From the NCBI GenBank assembly GCA_015522645.1, contig WALV01000043.1:1-60166 (forward strand): a stretch of 60,166 nt of DNA, read 5' to 3'. This DNA is from Candidatus Tiamatella sp. (GTDB taxonomy: Archaea; Thermoproteota; Thermoprotei_A; Sulfolobales; Acidilobaceae). A program made the position numbers and the translations under genes. The notes below the pieces were generated by a model. It saw nothing but the letters and a program-made list of their open reading frames with translations, made no database searches and was not told the origin of the DNA. The first letter of the stretch is position 1, and each line of letters begins with the position of its first letter. Of the stretch, positions 23,066 to 32,875 are shown one piece after another.

Positions 23066-23108
23066 AAAAAGGACTCTTACGTTATATATCATCGAGAGGT
23101 GCGTGGAA

Positions 23109-24386
23109 GTGCCTGTTGAGAATTCTCGTATATCAGGCTTCTATAAAAAAAGCATCGAAGAGAGAGTCAGGTTAATCAAAGACCTTGTAGGGCTTTCAGA
23201 TGAAGATATAGGCGTTCTACGCTCGTGGGGGAACCTTGATCCAAAAATAGCTGATGCCATGATAGAGAACGTGGTAGGGGCTATGTCTTATCCCTTCGCT
23301 ATTGCAACTAATTTCAAAGTAAACGGTAAAGATTATCTGGTTCCAATGGTAATAGAGGAATCTTCTGTTGTAGCAGCAGCAAGCAATGCGGCTCGAGTCA
23401 TGAGGAAGGATGATGGGATAAAAGCTGTTACAACAGGGCCTGTTATGATTAGTCAAATACAACTTGTCAATGTTAAAGCCCCATACTATGCGAAAATGAA
23501 GATTATCGAGTACAAGGAAGAGATATTGGAACTAGCCAATAAACAGGATCCTGTTCTAGTGAAGCTTGGCGGCGGAGCCAAGGATTTGGAAGTCAGAGTT
23601 ATAGGCGGTCCCCAGGGTCCTATGGTTGTGACGCATCTTATTGTAGATGTTAGGGATGCTATGGGGGCTAACGCTGTAAATACTATGGCTGAGAAGGTTG
23701 CTCCGTTGATTGAGAGAATTACTGGTGGGAAAGTGTATCTTAGAATACTTACGAATCTTGCAGAGAAAAGGCTTGCCCGGGCTTGGGTGAAAGTCTACAA
23801 GGAAGATATAGGTGGAGAAGAAGCTGTTGACGGCATAGTAGCAGCATCGGATTTTGCTTGGGCGGATCCTTATCGAGCGGCAACACATAATAAAGGCATC
23901 ATGAATGGAATTATAGCTGTTGCACTAGCCACAGGACAAGATCACAGAGCTCTCGAAGCAGGGGCCCACGCATACGCGGCAAGAAACGGTAGGTATATGC
24001 CACTATCTCTATGGGAGAAAGATGAAGAAGGTAATCTCGTCGGAAGCCTTGAGCTCCCTATAGCTGTGGGTTTGGTGGGAGGTGCTGTGAAAGTTCACCC
24101 TGTCGCTAGGCTAGCAATCAAGATACTTGGAGTTGAAACAGCGCAGGAACTTGCCGAAATAATGGCTGCCGTAGGATTAGCCCAGAATTTCGCGGCACTA
24201 AGAGCTTTGGCAACAGAAGGCATCCAAAAGGGCCATATGAAGCTTCATGCAAAGAATATAGCAATAATGGCCGGAGCTTCTCCAGAGCTCGCTGATAAGA
24301 TCGCGGACATCATGGTTTCCGAAGGAAACGTCAGGTTTGACAGGGCTAAAGAGTTATTGGAAGAGCTGGGGCATAGTTCTAGCTAG
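23109..24386 (+). CDS. HMG-CoA reductase, class II
   Basis: About 425 aa, full length. Class II features: a short soluble N-terminus with SRISGFYKKSIEERV, ENVVGAMSYPFAIATNF, the catalytic Glu in VPMVIEESSVVAAAS, DVRDAMGANAVNTMAE, a Lys in NLAEKRLARAW, ATGQDHRALEAGAHAYA with the catalytic Asp, and HMKLHAKNIA with the catalytic His. It makes mevalonate from HMG-CoA for archaeal isoprenoid lipids. Most archaea use class I enzymes; class II is a minority type usually credited to gene transfer. The GTG at 23109 has GAGGTG 8 nt upstream; a GTG at 23103 is too close to that site. It overlaps the convergent HMGR-like gene by 33 nt. Confidence 0.92.
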   Translation: MPVENSRISGFYKKSIEERVRLIKDLVGLSDEDIGVLRSWGNLDPKIADAMIENVVGAMSYPFAIATNFKVNGKDYLVPMVIEESSVVAAASNAARVMRKDDGIKAVTTGPVMISQIQLVNVKAPYYAKMKIIEYKEEILELANKQDPVLVKLGGGAKDLEVRVIGGPQGPMVVTHLIVDVRDAMGANAVNTMAEKVAPLIERITGGKVYLRILTNLAEKRLARAWVKVYKEDIGGEEAVDGIVAASDFAWADPYRAATHNKGIMNGIIAVALATGQDHRALEAGAHAYAARNGRYMPLSLWEKDEEGNLVGSLELPIAVGLVGGAVKVHPVARLAIKILGVETAQELAEIMAAVGLAQNFAALRALATEGIQKGHMKLHAKNIAIMAGASPELADKIADIMVSEGNVRFDRAKELLEELGHSSS

Positions 24387-25067
24387 CTCTAGCACGAATA
24401 TCAAGGTCTCCTTCAATTTCCTCTCGTAATCAATAAGCTGAGGGTTTTCTTTTCCAGTCATTATCTTAGCAATGTCTATTATGGTTGGGTTTGTTTCAAA
24501 CAACCCAACATTTACCTTTACTACTTGTTCGACTGACAGGGAATCAGCGTGCCAATAGTCAAACATGAATACCTTGTTGACTAGGTCTTCCATTTTCAGT
24601 GCAGAAGCTATAGCAAATGATATTAGAAATGTTCTGAATCCTGGGATATTAATCGTGCACTTTAAACTATCTTCTATGCCAGTGCTTTTAATTCTAATTT
24701 TTTCGGGGTCATACTCTATGTCTGCTAATTTTAAGGCGATGTTATTAACATCATCGGCTATGTAGGCTAGAGGTATATATGTCTTCTCAATGATGCTTTC
24801 ATCTTTTCTCCTATAGCTAAAGGGACCTACAACTATTAGTGGAATTTGAAGTGTTCCTATTATCCCATGTCTAATATTCTGCGGTATAACTTCGAAATCA
24901 ATTATACCTGAGGCTATTGATGATAGACTTATTCCTTCAATCTTCTCGACAACTGACCGCCTAACAAGAACCTCTGTGTTCCCGTTACTAGTCTCTAGGA
25001 AGTATATTTCTCGTTTATTCGGTGAAAAATGCTTAGAGAGAATGTTGTCTATATTAGTGGGTTCCAT
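24354..25067 (-). CDS. Truncated class I HMG-CoA reductase-like protein, probably non-catalytic
   Basis: 237 aa, against about 400 for class I HMG-CoA reductases. Residues 33-110 follow the class I N-terminal pattern: VRRSVVEKIEGISLSSI, IDFEVIPQNI, GIIGTLQIPLIVVGPF and YIPLAYIADD. These correspond to the usual RR, IGxxQIPxGxxGP and YVPLATTEGAL elements. The catalytic Glu of TTEG is replaced (IADD), and the later DAMGMN, Lys and GQD elements are missing; the C-terminal half is unfamiliar. It is the last gene of the HMG-CoA synthase-thiolase-DUF35 operon, 22 nt after DUF35. The assignment is by eye and needs a profile search. It could be a retained regulatory or structural paralogue or a decaying gene. 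Confidence 0.6.
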   Translation of the reverse strand: MEPTNIDNILSKHFSPNKREIYFLETSNGNTEVLVRRSVVEKIEGISLSSIASGIIDFEVIPQNIRHGIIGTLQIPLIVVGPFSYRRKDESIIEKTYIPLAYIADDVNNIALKLADIEYDPEKIRIKSTGIEDSLKCTINIPGFRTFLISFAIASALKMEDLVNKVFMFDYWHADSLSVEQVVKVNVGLFETNPTIIDIAKIMTGKENPQLIDYERKLKETLIFVLELARTMPQLFQ

Positions 25068-25089: not shown

Positions 25090-25497
25090 TTAGTGACTAA
25101 TTACAGGTCTAAACTTGTATCCATAATGGATTAATCCAGCTGTTCTGTCTTCTCTTATTTTCCTTACGACTGCTTCGACTTCAATGCCCTCACTAATCTC
25201 CTCCAGTGAAACATCTGTCAATTGGGCTATAATCCGTGTTTCTCCAAGGTCAATTAATCCTATTATTAGCGGTGTCTGAAGCTTGTATCCCTCTGGAGGA
25301 TTATATGATACAGTATATGATAACAGTCTACCTATCCTTGGAAGGCTTACAGGTTCAACATTGTCTGAGCTGCAGTATGGACATCTACTCTGCGGAGGAA
25401 AGAATACCCTACCACACTTCTTGCATCTCCCCCCTATTAACTTGTAATAATTCACTCTATTCCTCCAGTATATAGGAACGGAGTACTCCATTGACAT
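25090..25497 (-). CDS. DUF35 OB-fold/zinc-ribbon acyl-CoA-binding protein
   Basis: 135 aa. An N-terminal rubredoxin-like zinc ribbon (C25, C28, C39, C42) is followed by an OB-fold domain (GRLLSYTVSYNPPEGY, PLIIGLIDLGETRIIAQL). Archaeal DUF35 proteins bridge thiolase and HMG-CoA synthase and share a CoA tunnel that passes acetoacetyl-CoA between them. Here it sits between the thiolase (6 nt gap) and the HMGR-like gene. The ATG at 25497 has GGAGGTGA about 6 nt upstream. Confidence 0.9.
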   Translation of the reverse strand: MSMEYSVPIYWRNRVNYYKLIGGRCKKCGRVFFPPQSRCPYCSSDNVEPVSLPRIGRLLSYTVSYNPPEGYKLQTPLIIGLIDLGETRIIAQLTDVSLEEISEGIEVEAVVRKIREDRTAGLIHYGYKFRPVISH

Positions 25498-25503
25498 TAG
25501 GCT

Positions 25504-26625
25504 TCACCTCCTACCGAGAAGTATTCCGGATGCATTAGATCCTAACCCATTGACCCCGATTATCATAGCTTCCTTAGTTTCCGGTATTTGTATTTGGAAT
25601 GTTCCTGACAGGATCCCTGAGAGTTCTGCAATTTGATACACGCCGGTTGCACCGAATGGATGGCCCCTTGCCTTCAGGCCTCCGGTAACGTTTATAGGGA
25701 TCTCACCGTCTCTATCAAAAACTCCTTGGTTTGCCATATCTACAGATTTACCCCTCTCGGCTATCCCTATGGACTCCAATATTAGGTAAGGCGTTATCGT
25801 GAATTGATCTGTTACATCATAGAGGTCAACTGATAAATCTAACCCATTTTCATTCTTTATTTTAGAATAGACTCTTCGCGCGGCAGGTAAATCAAGTAAG
25901 TCTTCTTTATGCGTTACCGGCTTCACATCCGTAGAGCTATAGGCGTATTTTACCTCGGCAAGTGCAGAATTAGGGCTCCTGGTTAATAGAAGTGCACCAG
26001 CCCCATCTACTAGAGGATAGCTATCCAGTAGTGTTATAGGATCACTTATTACATTAGCTTTGACAACAGAGTCTTGGTCAACTGGGAATCTAAGGGCTGC
26101 ATATGGGTTATCAGCTGCATTTTTATGCATAAGAGCAGGCCAATATGCTAGTTCTTTATGTGTTTTACCATACCTCTTCATGTATTCCTTCATAGCCAGT
26201 GCATGCAGTGATGCATGCCCTACACCCATATATGATTCGTATTCACTATCGAATACTTTGCTAATCTCCTTGTACATTCTAGCGGCAACGAACTCAGTCA
26301 TTTTCTCAGCTCCGATGACTAGAATATTGTCGTACATGCCTCCAGCTAATAGCCTGAATGCCATTAACACTGAATTATGGCCGGAAGTTTCTCCCGTCTC
26401 GACTCTTATAGCGGGAACACCCTTGAAACCAGCGATTTCAGTTATTTTTGACGCTATATCAAGCTGACCTATCGTAGCTGCAGTAAATACTGTCGAAACT
26501 ATAATCATGTCAGGTTTATCTAAGCCCTCCATATCACTTAAAGCATCAAAGACTAGATCGTAAAGGCTCTTATTATACGATCTCCCCAGTTTGGTCATTC
26601 CATACGATTTAACGTAAACCCCCAT
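25504..26625 (-). CDS. Thiolase family protein lacking the catalytic cysteine
   Basis: A 373-aa thiolase-fold protein of the archaeal acetoacetyl-CoA thiolase type. Where active enzymes have VEAACASGG, this one has VETGETSGH, so the nucleophilic Cys is Glu79. The HDCF motif is TDQF (272-275), losing the oxyanion-hole His. The GHP motif (KARGHPFGATG, His322) is kept. No cysteine occurs anywhere in the protein. It is complete and in frame, with a good ribosome binding site (GGTGGTG) and 15 nt from the HMG-CoA synthase stop. It may be a structural partner in the HMG-CoA synthase/DUF35 complex rather than a thiolase. Confidence 0.88.
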   Translation of the reverse strand: MGVYVKSYGMTKLGRSYNKSLYDLVFDALSDMEGLDKPDMIIVSTVFTAATIGQLDIASKITEIAGFKGVPAIRVETGETSGHNSVLMAFRLLAGGMYDNILVIGAEKMTEFVAARMYKEISKVFDSEYESYMGVGHASLHALAMKEYMKRYGKTHKELAYWPALMHKNAADNPYAALRFPVDQDSVVKANVISDPITLLDSYPLVDGAGALLLTRSPNSALAEVKYAYSSTDVKPVTHKEDLLDLPAARRVYSKIKNENGLDLSVDLYDVTDQFTITPYLILESIGIAERGKSVDMANQGVFDRDGEIPINVTGGLKARGHPFGATGVYQIAELSGILSGTFQIQIPETKEAMIIGVNGLGSNASGILLGRR

Positions 26626-26640
26626 CTCACACCACCAAGG

Positions 26641-27696
26641 TTAGACTATACGGGTAATTATGCTCCTATACTTAGTGTACATAGCATAGTCTACCGTCTT
26701 CTTCCTCACCAAATAATCGTCCACTGTAGGAGCCTTGCTCTTTCTATTCACAATACTTTCGCCGACCACTATGCTATAGGCGTCACTTCCGGCGCCACTA
26801 CCGAATGGGGCTACAAGTATTCTTTGACCAGGTTTTGCTTGGTCGAGGACTCTAGCTAAACCCAGTAGAGCACTTCCATTATAGGTATTCCCGATAAACG
26901 GTGTCACAAGCCCTGGGAGAATCTTTTCTTTCGGGAATCCCAGCATTTTACCTACCTTTAGCGGGAATCGCCCATTGGGTTGATGGAAGATCGCGTAGTC
27001 GAAGTCCTCCTGTTTTAAATCAAGTGTTTCCATCAATGTCCGGACAGAATTTACTATATGATGGAAATACGCTGGCTCTCCAGTAAAGCCTTCACCATGT
27101 AAAGGATATGGTTGCAACGCTCTTCTCCAAAAGTCTGGAGTATCTGTAACATAAGTGTACGATCCTTCAATGACTGCTGCTTCCGTCCCATCCGGTTTCC
27201 CTATAATGAAGGCTGCTCCACCACTGCTTGCCGTGAACTCCAACACATCTCCCGGATTAGCTTGTGCAGTATCGCTACCTATGGCTAGACCGTATTTTAC
27301 TAGTCCCCCAAGAGTCATACCTATTATAGCTCTGAAAGCTTCACTTCCTGCTCGGCAAGCGAATTCAAGGTCAGAAGCCATTGTGGAGGGAGTTATGCCT
27401 AATGCCTCTGCAATAACTGTCGCACTAGGCTTTACAGCGTATGGTTTAGACTCGCTTCCGAACATTACCACACCTATTTCCTTGGGATCAATCATTGACC
27501 TTTTCAACGCGTTATAAGCGGCCTCCAGTCCTATAGTAAGAGAGTCCTCATCCGGGCCATCCACACTCTTCTCCTTCACGTTCAGACTGGCTGGAACACC
27601 TTCATGCCAACCCCATATTCTCGCTATCTCACTCATAGGAAGCCTATACCGAGGAATATATGCTCCCCAACCATAAATTGCGGCAGGATCGTGCAA
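26641..27696 (-). CDS. Hydroxymethylglutaryl-CoA synthase
   Basis: About 351 aa, archaeal HMG-CoA synthase type. GWGAYIPRYRLPM opens the fold. The catalytic Cys is in LEFACRAGSEA, the His in AIFHQPNGRFP, and FIGNTYNGSALLGLARVLD and FGSGAGSDAYS follow. It condenses acetoacetyl-CoA and acetyl-CoA. TTG 27696 is preferred as start because GGGTGG (27703-27708) lies 8 nt upstream; a GTG at 27708 overlaps that site. It is the first gene of the operon with thiolase, DUF35 and the HMGR-like protein. Confidence 0.93.
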   Translation of the reverse strand: MHDPAAIYGWGAYIPRYRLPMSEIARIWGWHEGVPASLNVKEKSVDGPDEDSLTIGLEAAYNALKRSMIDPKEIGVVMFGSESKPYAVKPSATVIAEALGITPSTMASDLEFACRAGSEAFRAIIGMTLGGLVKYGLAIGSDTAQANPGDVLEFTASSGGAAFIIGKPDGTEAAVIEGSYTYVTDTPDFWRRALQPYPLHGEGFTGEPAYFHHIVNSVRTLMETLDLKQEDFDYAIFHQPNGRFPLKVGKMLGFPKEKILPGLVTPFIGNTYNGSALLGLARVLDQAKPGQRILVAPFGSGAGSDAYSIVVGESIVNRKSKAPTVDDYLVRKKTVDYAMYTKYRSIITRIV

Positions 27697-27719
27697 TACG
27701 TCATCCACCCTTTATGCAG

Positions 27720-27789: not shown

Positions 27790-28914
27790 TTAATCATGTA
27801 ACCAGCAAGCAACTCTTCTCCCAGGCTTAACCTCCTTAAAAGGCGGTTCCTCCTTTGGACACTTATCAACCAACTTAGCCATTCCTTCCTGGCCTCCGAC
27901 TGCTCTATTGTAGTAAACGCATCTAGGATGGAACCGGCAGCCGGGAGGTATATTAATAGCACTAGGAACCTCACCAATTATTGGAACTTCTCTTATTTTC
28001 TTCCTATTTTCCGGGTTGGGATCAGGTATGGCTGCAACCAAAGCTTTGGTATAAGGATGCAATGGATCAGAGATTATTTCCCTTGCCTCACCCATTTCTA
28101 CAATTTTCCCAAGGTACATAACGGCTATTCTATTACATACGTATCGTGCAACAGCTAGGTCGTGAGTAATAAAGATGTAGGACAGGCCTATATCCCTCTT
28201 CAACTCGTTGAATAACTCTAGTATTTCCGCTCTAATTGACACGTCCAGCATTGAAACCGGTTCATCTGCAATTACCAGACGAGGGTTTAGAATTATAGCT
28301 CTTGCAATAGCTACCCTCTGCCTCTGCCCACCGCTGAGCTGGTGGGGGTATCTATCGATAAAATCCTCGGCAGGTGTTAATCTAACTTTATCAAGGACTC
28401 TAATTATCATTTCCTCCTTTTCCTCTCTAGTTGAAACCATCTTATGTACATCTATAGCCTCACCGACAACATCCCTTATCCTATAACGAGGATTCATGCT
28501 TCCATAAGGATCCTGATACACTATCTGTAAATCCCTTCTTAGAGGCTTAAACTTCTTTTGAGGGATAGAGACCAAGTCGACTCTTCCATCTGAATCCACG
28601 CTGACTCCGTTTTCTCTGAGGTCACTCAACACTGACTTACTAGGCTTGAATATCACAGAACCGCTTGTGACTGGGACTAATCTAAGTATAGCTTTCCCTG
28701 TAGTTGTTTTTCCACAGCCGCTCTCACCTACAAGGCAGAACGTCTCTCTTTCATGGACTTCGAATGAAATACCATCTACTGCATGAACATACAGTTTCGC
28801 CTTGCCCTTCAGATTATCAATAAAGCTTTGTGAGACGGGGAACCATACTTTAAGATTATTGGCTTCTAGGATTTTTTCTCCTATATCAGTACTATACACG
28901 TGTTCGCACCTCAT
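27790..28914 (-). CDS. dppF: Peptide ABC transporter ATP-binding protein (DppF/OppF type)
   Basis: About 374 aa. Walker A is GESGCGKTT, the signature is LSGGQRQRV, Walker B is LVIADEPVS and the H-loop is FITHD. The C-terminal oligopeptide-transporter extension has CRFHPRC and another Cys, a family feature that can hold an iron-sulfur cluster. It energises import of peptides with DppD. The ATG at 28914 overlaps the dppD stop as TGATG, so translation is coupled. It is the last gene of the five-gene transporter locus. Confidence 0.92.
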   Translation of the reverse strand: MRCEHVYSTDIGEKILEANNLKVWFPVSQSFIDNLKGKAKLYVHAVDGISFEVHERETFCLVGESGCGKTTTGKAILRLVPVTSGSVIFKPSKSVLSDLRENGVSVDSDGRVDLVSIPQKKFKPLRRDLQIVYQDPYGSMNPRYRIRDVVGEAIDVHKMVSTREEKEEMIIRVLDKVRLTPAEDFIDRYPHQLSGGQRQRVAIARAIILNPRLVIADEPVSMLDVSIRAEILELFNELKRDIGLSYIFITHDLAVARYVCNRIAVMYLGKIVEMGEAREIISDPLHPYTKALVAAIPDPNPENRKKIREVPIIGEVPSAINIPPGCRFHPRCVYYNRAVGGQEGMAKLVDKCPKEEPPFKEVKPGRRVACWLHD

Positions 28915-29879
28915 CAATCATAGAGATGGCAAGCTGCATAATGCCCCTTCTCTAATTCCTTCAAGGGAGGTTCTTCCTTATGGCAAATGTCCATTACCCT
29001 GTTACACCTAGGTGCAAACCTACATCCCGGCGGAGGGAATCTTAGATCAGGTGGAGCCCCAGGTATATACTCTAGTTTTGTAACCGGTCCTGTAAGCCTG
29101 GGGATAGCTCTTATCAAAGCCTGCGTATAAGGATGAAGCGGATTATTAAATATCTGTTCTGCAGTACCGAACTCTACAATTTTACCAGCATACATAACGG
29201 CAATTTTCTCTGCCAATTCAGTAACAGCTCCCAAGTCATGGCTTATTATAATAATGCTACGTTTCTTTTTCCTTTGCAACTCCTTTAAAAGATTAAGTAT
29301 CTGTGACTGAACCACCACGTCTAATGCAGTGGTAGGCTCATCAGCTATAACTATGTCTGGTTCAAGAGTCAATGCCATAGCAATGACTACTCTTTGCTTC
29401 ATCCCTCCCGATAGTTCATGAGGATATCTATCTGCTATAGCCGGTGTCAAACCAACACTATTTAGAAGCTCATCCACTCTCTTGAAAGCCTTTTCCTCAG
29501 AATAACCTGCTAATAGCATCGGCTCCGCGACCTGCTCACGTATCTTGTAAACAGGGTTAAGCGCATTCATCGCACCCTGAAATATCATGCTAACCTTCTT
29601 CCATCTAATCTTTTCTCTTATCTCACCCTCACTCATCCTAGTTATATCCATACCATCAATCATGATGGAACCACTGACAATTTTACCTGGAGGAGGAACT
29701 AGACCTATTATACTCCATGCCAACGTAGATTTTCCACAGCCGCTCTCACCTACAATACCTAAAGTCTCTCCTTTTTCGAGTGTAAGCGATACATTGTCAA
29801 CAGCTTTCACTATGCCCCTTAAAGTGTAAAAATAAGTCTTCAACCCTTTAATTTCAAGTAATGGCAAGGCAAACACCAT
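28914..29879 (-). CDS. dppD: Peptide ABC transporter ATP-binding protein (DppD/OppD type)
   Basis: About 321 aa. Walker A is GESGCGKST, the signature is LSGGMKQRV, Walker B is DIVIADEPTT and the H-loop is IISHD. It ends with the oligo_HPY extension containing CRFAPRC. I place the start at ATG 29879 or GTG 29876: LLEIKGLKTYF follows at once, and GGTGG lies just upstream. A 46-residue in-frame extension upstream is hydrophobic and unlike the family. It has its own TATA box and follows the terminator of the binding-protein gene. Confidence 0.92.
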   Translation of the reverse strand: MVFALPLLEIKGLKTYFYTLRGIVKAVDNVSLTLEKGETLGIVGESGCGKSTLAWSIIGLVPPPGKIVSGSIMIDGMDITRMSEGEIREKIRWKKVSMIFQGAMNALNPVYKIREQVAEPMLLAGYSEEKAFKRVDELLNSVGLTPAIADRYPHELSGGMKQRVVIAMALTLEPDIVIADEPTTALDVVVQSQILNLLKELQRKKKRSIIIISHDLGAVTELAEKIAVMYAGKIVEFGTAEQIFNNPLHPYTQALIRAIPRLTGPVTKLEYIPGAPPDLRFPPPGCRFAPRCNRVMDICHKEEPPLKELEKGHYAACHLYD

Positions 29880-29937
29880 TCCACCAGCTAAACTACCGGA
29901 GCAAAATACTTGCGTATACCAGATTTTTAATTTTACA

Positions 29938-29945
29938 ATATAAAA
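29938..29945 (-). promoter_or_regulatory. TATA box for dppD-dppF
   Basis: TTTTATAT on the minus strand, about 60 nt upstream of the dppD start and after a T-run terminator, suggests that the two ATPase genes have their own promoter inside the transporter locus. Confidence 0.45.
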
Positions 29946-30004
29946 CCAAACTCTAATAATACTCACATTACTATCAGGAAAGCCAATATTAATTAAAGAC
30001 AAGT

Positions 30005-30031
30005 GAAAAAGAAACAAAAATTAAAAAAATA
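30005..30031 (-). terminator. T-rich terminator after the peptide-binding protein gene
   Basis: On the minus strand a sequence dominated by T-runs (including TTATTTTTTT and TTTTTG) begins about 20 nt after the stop of the binding-protein gene. This is the form of archaeal intrinsic terminators. It may let the abundant binding protein be expressed above the ATPase genes. Confidence 0.55.
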
Positions 30032-30051: not shown

Positions 30052-32733
30052 TTACTTTCTCATTGCATACCATGCCGCGGCTATGATTATTATGATTATT
30101 ATTATGACGCTAGCCCATAGTGCTGCATTGCTCTTCTTCGGTGCAGTAGTCGATTGTGTAGGTGAAGATGTCGGTGAGCTAGTTGTTGTCTGCACAGGAC
30201 TGCTTGTAGTGGTCGTGTGGGTTGTGCTTGTAGTGGTAGTTGTCGTAGTAGTTGTTGTCTGCACAGGACTGCTTGTAGTGGTCGTGTGGGTTGTGCTTGT
30301 AGTGGTAGTTGTCGTAGTAGTTGTTGTCTGCACAGGAGGTGCTTGCAGCGTTAGCACTTTCTGGAATGTTGCTGGTACGCTGTAGCCTACCGGGTATGCT
30401 AGAATAGCTATTGAATACTGGCCTTCCGGTAGGTTAGATGGTAGTTGTGCTATGAATTCTCCGGGCTTTACCTGTTTGATGTTAAGGAATGTTGACTTGT
30501 AGTTGCTTAAATCTATGAGAAGGGCGTAAACCATTGAATTCTGCTGGGTTGCAGGATTACCGCTGACAGTAGCATCGATCTTAGCGATTGGAGTTCCTTT
30601 CGTGTTGTAAGATATGCCGGGAACTGTTGCATTCATTGTTAGACTCTTAGGTGAAAGCTCTAGGGCTATAATGGCAGGTTGAACAGGGAAGTTCTGTACT
30701 CTCTCTAAAGTAGCTACATCATTAACATTATCATAGCTTGTCAGTTTGAAGGGGCCATTCCCTATCACGAGGTTGTGATACTCGTTATAGAAGTTTATCA
30801 GGTTATGTACACGTGCCTGCCAGTCGCTTAGCGAGAGTACGCCTAGGTTTATGAGCTGTTGAACCCAGTCCGGTGGGTTGTTCAATGTATTATTGAGGTA
30901 GTTTATCATCATTTGATCCTGGTCTGTTGAGATCAGGTGGACCTGTGGTAATCCTGTAGCGCCAGAAGCCTCCATAGTATAAACAAGCTTATGGTTCCTT
31001 GTAGCCTGGTCCATTGCAGCGTAAAGCTCAAGTGGGAAGGATGTCCATGGATTCATGGTTTGAGCTGTTAGGCCATCGTCAACCGATGTGTAGTTAGAGT
31101 ATACTGTCACCGCAGTACTGTTTATGATTTTTATGGCTACGAAGTTATTAAGGAATGTGGAGTAATATCCTTGTAGTGATGTTTCTGCTCTATTATCTTT
31201 TGTTGTATTGGTACTAGTATCATGACTGTATTCCTCTATAACGTATATAGGAGCCAGTAAATCAGCAACCGTTTCCGTGGTTCCATCATGGAACTTCAAT
31301 TTACCTAGCAGTTTGAAGTTATAGGTTATAGCATCCTTAGCATACAGTGTTCCCTCGTCACTCACATGCTTCCATTGATGAGCCTTATAATCATATACTA
31401 AAGCGTTACCTGGAACCTGTAATACTGGGCTGCCTTTCTGCACGCTCCATGTTGCAGTGTTAGCAGGACTCCAACCAGTGGCACCATCCGTCACTCTACT
31501 AGTTACTTCAGGCCATATAACTGCCCGGTATACTGACTGGCTGTACATGTCCTGCCATCCGGCTACAGGGTTCCATCCCCAACCGGATTTATATACATAC
31601 CTATCACTTAACTTCACACTATCTGTCTTGTAGTGGAGATTAAGGTAAGTGAATGTATTCCAAGGCCATGCTTTAGGACTGGTTATAAAGCCTGTTAAAC
31701 CTGGTGCTGCAATATAGAAGTCTCTGGTTGCAGCAACCCATACACGTACGGATTCCTGGAACCCTAGGTCTAATATCTTGTTGACCATCTGGTAGAACTG
31801 TGCTGATGAATTATACTCGCCATTGTCTAATGCAGTTGCTATTTTATCTATTGTAGCATTTCGATAATTCCAGTATCCACTTTGCAGCCATCCAGGCATG
31901 CCTCCCCAGATGCTACTGTAGAAGTATACTGCATCGCCGTAGTTGTATTTTGTCATACCTGTTATGCCCCAACCTTCAGTATATAAGCTCCACTGGCAGT
32001 CGCCTGGGTTTCCTGAATAGACTATTTGGAAAGCAGCACTGAAGTCCTTGTACATTCTGTTGACCGTTAGATTAGCCTCTTTCTCTAGAACATTGGCAAG
32101 CATATCACCAATATTCCTACGCTCGTCTTCTGTTCTAATGACAAAGTTTACAGTAACAGGTTTACCGTCCTTATACCACTTACCGTTCTTGAGAACAGCA
32201 CCATCTCTCTTTAGGGCGTCAGCAAGAAGGTGGAGGCCGTAGGATTTTCCTTTAGCTTCAACTATACTCATCCACTTTGTGTTGGTAGCTATTAGATGGG
32301 GATAGTCAGGGTCAAGCGGTGTATAAGAATTGACTATCGGTAAGGCATACCCCTTGTATATATTGGTTACAATTTGTTCCCTCGGTATCAGGAATTCCAA
32401 TGCGAATCTTGCCTCTCTATCAGCAAACAGATTAAACATGCCATTGCTACACTCGTTTGCTGGGTTTACCAGAATATCTGTCAAACCTCCTAGTGGCGCT
32501 ATAACAGTAAATCCTTTCGTCTTAAGAGTTTGGGCTGTTTCAGCACTCCTTATTCCAAATAACCTACCCTGGGTTTCACCGTTCTCCAGTGACTGGACTG
32601 CTGTTGCGTCATCCGTTATCCTCTCAATTGTTATTTTGTTGACGAGAACGCTTTGCTGAGCATTTGCTTGGTATAGTGGAATGAGCGGTAGTAGCATAAT
32701 GACTATTAATAGTATCGAGAAATACTTCTTCAC
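30052..32733 (-). CDS. Peptide ABC transporter substrate-binding protein, membrane-anchored (family 5)
   Basis: About 893 aa from GTG 32733, chosen because AGAGGTGAG lies 7 nt upstream; this places a clean signal peptide (KKYFSILLIVIMLLPLIPL) at the N-terminus. The body is an extracytoplasmic family 5 binding protein (VAGWQDMYSQSVYRAVIWPEV, then LGKLKFHDGTTETVADLL). Near the C-terminus a Thr/Ser-rich stalk contains two identical 23-residue repeats. A single hydrophobic helix (ALWASVIIIIIIIIAAAWYA) and MRK end the protein, anchoring it to the outer membrane face. The stalk is probably O-glycosylated (inference). It delivers peptides to the DppBC channel. Confidence 0.92.
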   Translation of the reverse strand: MKKYFSILLIVIMLLPLIPLYQANAQQSVLVNKITIERITDDATAVQSLENGETQGRLFGIRSAETAQTLKTKGFTVIAPLGGLTDILVNPANECSNGMFNLFADREARFALEFLIPREQIVTNIYKGYALPIVNSYTPLDPDYPHLIATNTKWMSIVEAKGKSYGLHLLADALKRDGAVLKNGKWYKDGKPVTVNFVIRTEDERRNIGDMLANVLEKEANLTVNRMYKDFSAAFQIVYSGNPGDCQWSLYTEGWGITGMTKYNYGDAVYFYSSIWGGMPGWLQSGYWNYRNATIDKIATALDNGEYNSSAQFYQMVNKILDLGFQESVRVWVAATRDFYIAAPGLTGFITSPKAWPWNTFTYLNLHYKTDSVKLSDRYVYKSGWGWNPVAGWQDMYSQSVYRAVIWPEVTSRVTDGATGWSPANTATWSVQKGSPVLQVPGNALVYDYKAHQWKHVSDEGTLYAKDAITYNFKLLGKLKFHDGTTETVADLLAPIYVIEEYSHDTSTNTTKDNRAETSLQGYYSTFLNNFVAIKIINSTAVTVYSNYTSVDDGLTAQTMNPWTSFPLELYAAMDQATRNHKLVYTMEASGATGLPQVHLISTDQDQMMINYLNNTLNNPPDWVQQLINLGVLSLSDWQARVHNLINFYNEYHNLVIGNGPFKLTSYDNVNDVATLERVQNFPVQPAIIALELSPKSLTMNATVPGISYNTKGTPIAKIDATVSGNPATQQNSMVYALLIDLSNYKSTFLNIKQVKPGEFIAQLPSNLPEGQYSIAILAYPVGYSVPATFQKVLTLQAPPVQTTTTTTTTTTSTTHTTTTSSPVQTTTTTTTTTTSTTHTTTTSSPVQTTTSSPTSSPTQSTTAPKKSNAALWASVIIIIIIIIAAAWYAMRK
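30182..30336. repeat. Two perfect 69-bp tandem repeats plus partial third
   Basis: Units at 30182-30250 and 30251-30319 appear identical, followed by 17 nt of a third copy. They lie in frame in the binding-protein gene and encode the Thr/Ser stalk. Because 69 is a multiple of 3, gain or loss of a unit changes stalk length without a frameshift. Confidence 0.9.
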
Positions 32734-32875
32734 TATTAGACTCACCTCTAACATATTGAATGTTTAGTGGTCTAGTTCTTGTATTAATGGATAGCTCTAT
32801 TTAAAATTATTCTCAACATACAGTGGGATAAGAGTTATTGAAGAATAGTTAGAAAATAATGCTCGAGAGGTGTTA

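Follow-up and report, generated by a model that had tools for sequence, protein, structure and literature searches.

The thiolase-like gene of the mevalonate operon in the analysed window (the whole 60,166-nucleotide stretch of DNA) has lost the catalytic cysteine and, judging from its sequence and setting, probably encodes a non-thiolytic, CoA-binding partner subunit of HMG-CoA synthase (HMGCS), with acetoacetyl-CoA supplied by a PhaA-like enzyme. The gene lies on the minus strand at positions 25504 to 26625, opens with an ATG and encodes 373 residues, none of which is a cysteine. A preceding sequence-only reading had described a cysteine-free protein here, and it was correct on coordinates, strand and composition alike. 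The nucleophile motif reads VETGETSGH, with Glu79 (codon at about 26389–26391) in the column of the nucleophile cysteine. The HDxF (HDCF) motif has become TDQF, with its histidine absent, and the GHP histidine is retained in an intact GGLKARGHPFG. These motif assignments were all confirmed. In phmmer alignments, Glu79 stands opposite the cysteine of 6ESQ/6ET9 chain A and of 7YVY, the thiolases of Methanothermococcus and Pyrococcus, respectively; the active cysteine of the Methanothermococcus enzyme is Cys85 (PMC6392133). The archaeal reference motifs chosen in the sequence-only reading, VEAACASGG and HDCF, held for the nucleophile loss but need correction for the HDCF cysteine. The nearest Cys-bearing archaeal relatives carry VEAACGSGG and HDAF, so that cysteine is normally missing even among Cys-bearing copies. 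By alignment, what sets the target apart is the loss of the nucleophile and, in its genus, the additional loss of the HDxF histidine.

The AlphaFold2 model of the protein (pLDDT 96, pTM 0.94) adopts a predicted thiolase fold. Residue 79 opens helix 78–94, the thiolase nucleophile position at the N-terminus of helix N-alpha-3, so the structure-based check for an active-site cysteine returned Glu79. The top Foldseek match of the model is 6ET9 chain C (E 6.9e-40, TM 0.93); by sequence, 7YVY scores highest and 6ESQ second in a phmmer comparison with solved structures. Both Pfam models pass their gathering thresholds (Thiolase_N 34.9 bits versus 26.4; Thiolase_C_1 75.8 versus 28), and neither NCBIfam cut-off is reached (NF053570, 201.5 versus 600 bits; NF004720, 253.7 versus 420 bits). 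A plain thiolase label was rejected on account of Glu79 and the missed NCBIfam cut-offs. Of the residues that define archaeal SCP2-type enzymes of EC 2.3.1.9, the nucleophile cysteine and the HDxF histidine are absent and the GHP histidine is present. Searched plasmid records matched only distant thiolases.

Each of the three adjacent proteins matches a different chain type of the same solved complex, 6ESQ/6ET9. HMGCS, the upstream operon partner (26641..27708, minus strand; best PDB match 6ESQ chain I), keeps its catalytic Glu (GSESKPYAV), Cys (DLEFACRAG) and His (FHQPNG). Downstream lies a DUF35 / ChsH2-like zinc-ribbon OB-fold scaffold protein (25090..25497, minus strand; best PDB match 6ESQ chain E). 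All three genes are on the minus strand, with 15 bases between HMGCS and the thiolase-like gene and 6 bases between the latter and DUF35, whose start codon follows the thiolase stop by those 6 bases, with a ribosome-binding site (GGAGGTGA) right at that stop. The order HMGCS-thiolase-DUF35 is kept in relatives. As in a 6ESQ-type subunit, the closest fold is that of the complex and the adjacent HMGCS and DUF35 genes share its strand. The target thus resembles the Methanothermococcus complex in gene set, in three subunits by sequence and fold, and in a GGLKARGHP-type cleft. It differs from that thiolase in the replacement of Cys85 by Glu79 and of HDCF by TDQF, at about 29% identity, and thiolase activity would be unexpected in the target.

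A second pathway enzyme shows a comparable arrangement. In relatives, DUF35 is followed by a complete class I HMG-CoA reductase. Here that site holds a truncated class I-like protein of 237 aa (24354..25067, minus strand), in which the catalytic Glu of ENxIG is replaced (RHGIIG) and the DAMGMN region is missing; this remnant is conserved across three species of the genus. The only complete HMG-CoA reductase found in this genome is a full-length class II-type enzyme (23103..24386, plus strand). Two enzymes of the pathway thus seem to have given way to distant ones, leaving a dead version of each behind in the operon. Elsewhere in the window, oligopeptide-type ABC ATPases (27790–30017) adjoin a solute-binding-like protein (30052–32754, minus strand) with a long Thr/Ser-rich stretch followed by a C-terminal hydrophobic segment.

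Replacement of the cysteine extends well beyond this genome. Families are written as codes (f1, f2 and so on), and the target family was judged via near-identical named records to be that of Aeropyrum, Caldisphaera and Acidilobaceae MAGs. VETGETSGH and TDQF recur unchanged in two further species of the genus, whose proteins are 87% and 78% identical to the target, and this, together with a low dN/dS, rules out a sequencing error. All 20 operon copies read in the target family have an acid at this position (Asp in one, Glu in the others), in most cases together with HDSF, and an oddity unique to this genome was ruled out by this family-wide acid. Order-wide, 72 of the 84 copies beside HMGCS have another residue in place of the cysteine (Glu in 46, Asp in 19, Gly in 5, Leu in 1, Gln in 1) and 12 keep it; of the copies not adjacent to HMGCS, 40 of 41 retain it, the exception being the Ser-type of f8. 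Cysteine loss goes hand in hand with linkage to HMGCS. In the rest of the phylum, Cys-less HMGCS-linked copies were observed in f22, f25, f30, f35, f37 and one f21 genus. Some related HMGCS-linked lineages have Gly or Ala at the nucleophile column. Sulfolobaceae-type copies have lost the GHP histidine. Named records with Cys-less copies comprise an Odinarchaeon, a Pyrolobus, Ca. Aramenus and three Chloroflexi/Anaerolineae. As read from these alignments, the loss is family-wide, recurs in other phyla and goes beyond this one gene.

The breadth of this linkage bears on the idea that the protein serves some partner or process other than HMGCS, the operon linkage being for expression only. DUF35 proteins do act in several settings, such as Trf in translation recovery (PMC6996347), but many families and phyla show this linkage with HMGCS specifically, and the match is to a solved HMGCS complex, which makes this idea highly unlikely.

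Other thiolase-like genes were noted alongside the operon copies. Two further Cys-less thiolase-like genes stand in tandem outside the mevalonate operon at L004 (in the target's own genome, on C54), L169 and L198, with a DUF35 gene behind them at L004 and L169; among the genomes with this pair are a sister species and one of Sulfolobaceae type. In f16, f23, f28, f31, f32, f34, f38 and f39 (L271–L279), HMGCS frames are ~500 aa long and mostly adjoin a very divergent thiolase-like gene (LELHVPMEKSRSFS, YDQST and GNPLG motifs), whose nucleophile column aligns without confidence. In f27, HMGCS is fused to DUF35.

On a tree of 180 rows, built with the motif columns excluded, the residue must have switched between Cys and non-Cys at least seven times, with the Ser-type paralogue accounting for one switch. 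A mixture-model tree of the order groups the Cys-less HMGCS-linked copies into one clade, two f7 rows excepted (SH-aLRT 95–99), and support for this clade falls to 64 once the phylum is added. A single ancient origin of these copies within the order is likely, but the long branches on which they sit keep it short of proven.

The Cys-less gene is under purifying selection. Its dN/dS is about 0.04–0.13, compared to 0.02–0.08 for HMGCS, for pairs whose synonymous sites are not fully saturated (in the target genus they are saturated in two of three pairs), and the reading frame is open in every full-length copy read. The earlier statement that this is not a decayed ORF is upheld by the low dN/dS and by the motif shared with two other species. 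The same data leave only a very slim chance that the gene is a relic without a function of its own, kept by operon structure or translational coupling. Fast divergence would fit a relic (~40% identity among the thiolase-like proteins within the family versus 62–72% for HMGCS), as would the long branch of the target genus and the loss of the gene in f9, but the low dN/dS, the open frames and the near-invariance of the acid and the cleft residues argue against it.

In f1, f2 and f5, 98% of copies have Glu at the nucleophile column and the remainder Asp, more than chance would give at a mean column identity of 49%, and every f11 copy has Asp. The acid at column 79 is as conserved as the cysteine in the Cys-bearing clade. 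Common to both clades are G82, G105, K108, W162, M166, H167, D207-G208, N312, G315-K318, R320-G321, G325, T327, Y330 and E334. The cleft is thus conserved though the known thiolase mechanism, in which the cysteine carries the acetyl group, cannot run. The near-invariant acid suggests more than a passive scaffold, and its strict conservation keeps a catalytic role alive. A repurposed enzyme is accordingly a real, if unlikely, possibility: the cleft might host a Cys-free CoA-ester reaction in step with HMGCS, with Glu/Asp as the base and enolisation, aldol/retro-aldol, decarboxylation or hydrolysis as candidates.

Precedents for such repurposing are found among the steroid aldolases Sal and Ltp2 (PDB 6OK1; PMC12329534), which have a thiolase fold without the nucleophile cysteine and are bound to a DUF35 protein, as the target gene adjoins a DUF35 gene. 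CtSal has Gly at this column and uses Tyr302/Cys304 (PMC12329534). These enzymes employ Tyr/Cys or Tyr/Tyr (YDCY/YDHF) for retro-aldol cleavage, whereas the target (TDQF) and most relatives (HDSF) are without that tyrosine; an aldolase of the Ltp2/Sal type was rejected for this reason. TbSLP (PDB 5AB4–5AB7), also among the fold matches, likewise has no thiolase cysteines and was solved with acetoacetyl-CoA and malonyl-CoA, but it is eukaryotic, has no DUF35 partner and carries a YDCF motif. Chemistry in the cleft is further disfavoured by the missing HDxF histidine in the target genus, by the missing GHP histidine in Sulfolobaceae-type copies and by Gly or Ala at the same column in related HMGCS-linked lineages.

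The prediction that the cell would need another thiolase was borne out by a search of the genome. A PhaA-like thiolase, in which the VCASG, NEAF, GHP and CHG motifs are all present, was found at G000:C65:39038-40216 and in both sister species. A second enzyme, on C36, is of the SCP2 type (VEAACSSGS/HDCF) and adjoins its own DUF35 gene. In the order-wide set, the PhaA-like gene is present in all 20 genomes of the family with an operon copy. Another Cys thiolase was found in 81 of 88 genomes with a Cys-less operon copy versus 4 of 24 with a Cys-bearing copy (Fisher p 1e-12, uncorrected for ancestry; there are only two independent pairs, too few for significance). Within f7, both Cys-less genomes have PhaA, and among the Cys-bearing ones it occurs in just one. 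Outside the order, the operon copy keeps its cysteine where it is the sole thiolase found, and many Cys-bearing genomes have no other thiolase.

The company of a Cys thiolase also weighs on the proposal that the protein is an active thiolase with a Glu/Asp nucleophile, forming an acyl-glutamyl anhydride as in CoA-transferases. The strictly conserved acid and the largely kept cleft would suit such an enzyme, but a Cys thiolase is nearly always present alongside, and related lineages with the same operon have Gly, Ala, Gln, Leu or His variants, so this proposal is barely credible.

Strict complementarity was rejected as a rule, being broken by six f8 genomes and by G047 (81% complete); the assemblies are partly MAGs, so gene absences can be gaps. 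A PF00108 search of the six f8 genomes yielded no Cys thiolase; five of these genomes carry a paralogue in which Ser replaces the cysteine. Family f8 seems, by this search, to be without any cysteine thiolase at all. A more speculative proposal is that the Cys-to-acid proteins are a new catalytic subunit with Glu/Asp doing the chemistry, for instance as a base acting on a CoA ester that the subunit shares with HMGCS, and that HMG-CoA is made by an undescribed route, in f8 without any Cys thiolase; this is rather improbable. Thiolase-like proteins of f8 (L180–L184, L126, L192–L193) read VENTSGSGG/HDMATIL, with Ser for Cys, and are similar to PDB 4YZO. That structure, ST0096 of Sulfolobus tokodaii, shares with the target an archaeal SCP2-type fold without the nucleophile cysteine. 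By alignment, however, it has Ser where the target has Glu, and it resembles the separate Ser-type lineage, which is not HMGCS-adjacent in the loci read.

The partner-subunit reading draws on what is known of related complexes. In the solved complex, CoA is bound at an interface built from all three proteins (PMC6392133), and thiolase and HMGCS share the CoA site (PMC12329534). The Friedel-Crafts acylase PhlACB (PDB 5M3K) has the same three-part architecture, and its HMGCS-like subunit PhlA has lost Cys and Glu and is still required for a functional complex (PMC6392133). PhlACB is the mirror image of the target system: its HMGCS-like half is dead, while its thiolase-like half keeps the cysteine. 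The shared CoA site and the indispensable dead half of PhlACB favour the partner reading; by analogy, a chemically dead thiolase half could still be needed to complete the CoA site.

We infer that Cys-dependent Claisen/thiolysis was abandoned and the thiolase fold retained as the neighbour of HMGCS in a thiolase/HMGCS/DUF35 complex. The PhaA-like enzyme would make acetoacetyl-CoA, and the Cys-less subunit would still supply its half of the shared CoA-binding cleft, bind or pass acetoacetyl-CoA or CoA to HMGCS and stabilise the complex. The conserved Glu/Asp may fill or lock the emptied nucleophile/oxyanion site, a role that Gln plays in the KSQ domains and chain-length factors of polyketide synthases. 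These are thiolase-superfamily subunits in which a fixed polar residue replaces the active-site cysteine, with Gln where the target has Glu/Asp and with ACP-bound substrates.

A structural or CoA-channelling partner of HMGCS and DUF35 had been suggested from the sequence. This is the best-supported reading of the role, given the operon and the match to 6ESQ/6ET9; the sequence alone could not show that the change runs through the whole family. Counting against a partner role, some lineages can dispense with the partner. The HMGCS-DUF35 operons of f9 (L135–L149) lack the thiolase gene, which amounts to a deletion made by nature, and these genomes encode a Cys thiolase at another site. A literature search, with the 2018 PNAS paper on the complex outside its reach, returned no mention of Cys-less members, and the Sulfolobus gene goes unmentioned in the main text of the essential-genome paper on S. 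islandicus.

With the nucleophile lost, usually Glu or Asp in its place and the gene still adjacent to HMGCS, the annotated first enzyme of isoprenoid (membrane-lipid) synthesis in many heat-loving archaea is probably a repurposed partner subunit, with another enzyme performing the first step. In the families of Aeropyrum, Caldisphaera and Ca. Aramenus, and in several further lineages, the annotated first mevalonate enzyme is very probably not performing its step, and in pathway reconstructions the source of acetoacetyl-CoA is better sought in PhaA-like or second SCP2-type thiolases. The pattern indicates that a thiolase-fold partner is required by, or of benefit to, the HMGCS complex even when the partner's chemistry is lost. 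The idea of a shared CoA site becomes testable in genetically tractable Sulfolobus relatives, and the repeated replacement of the cysteine in one partner offers a natural series for the transition from enzyme to subunit.
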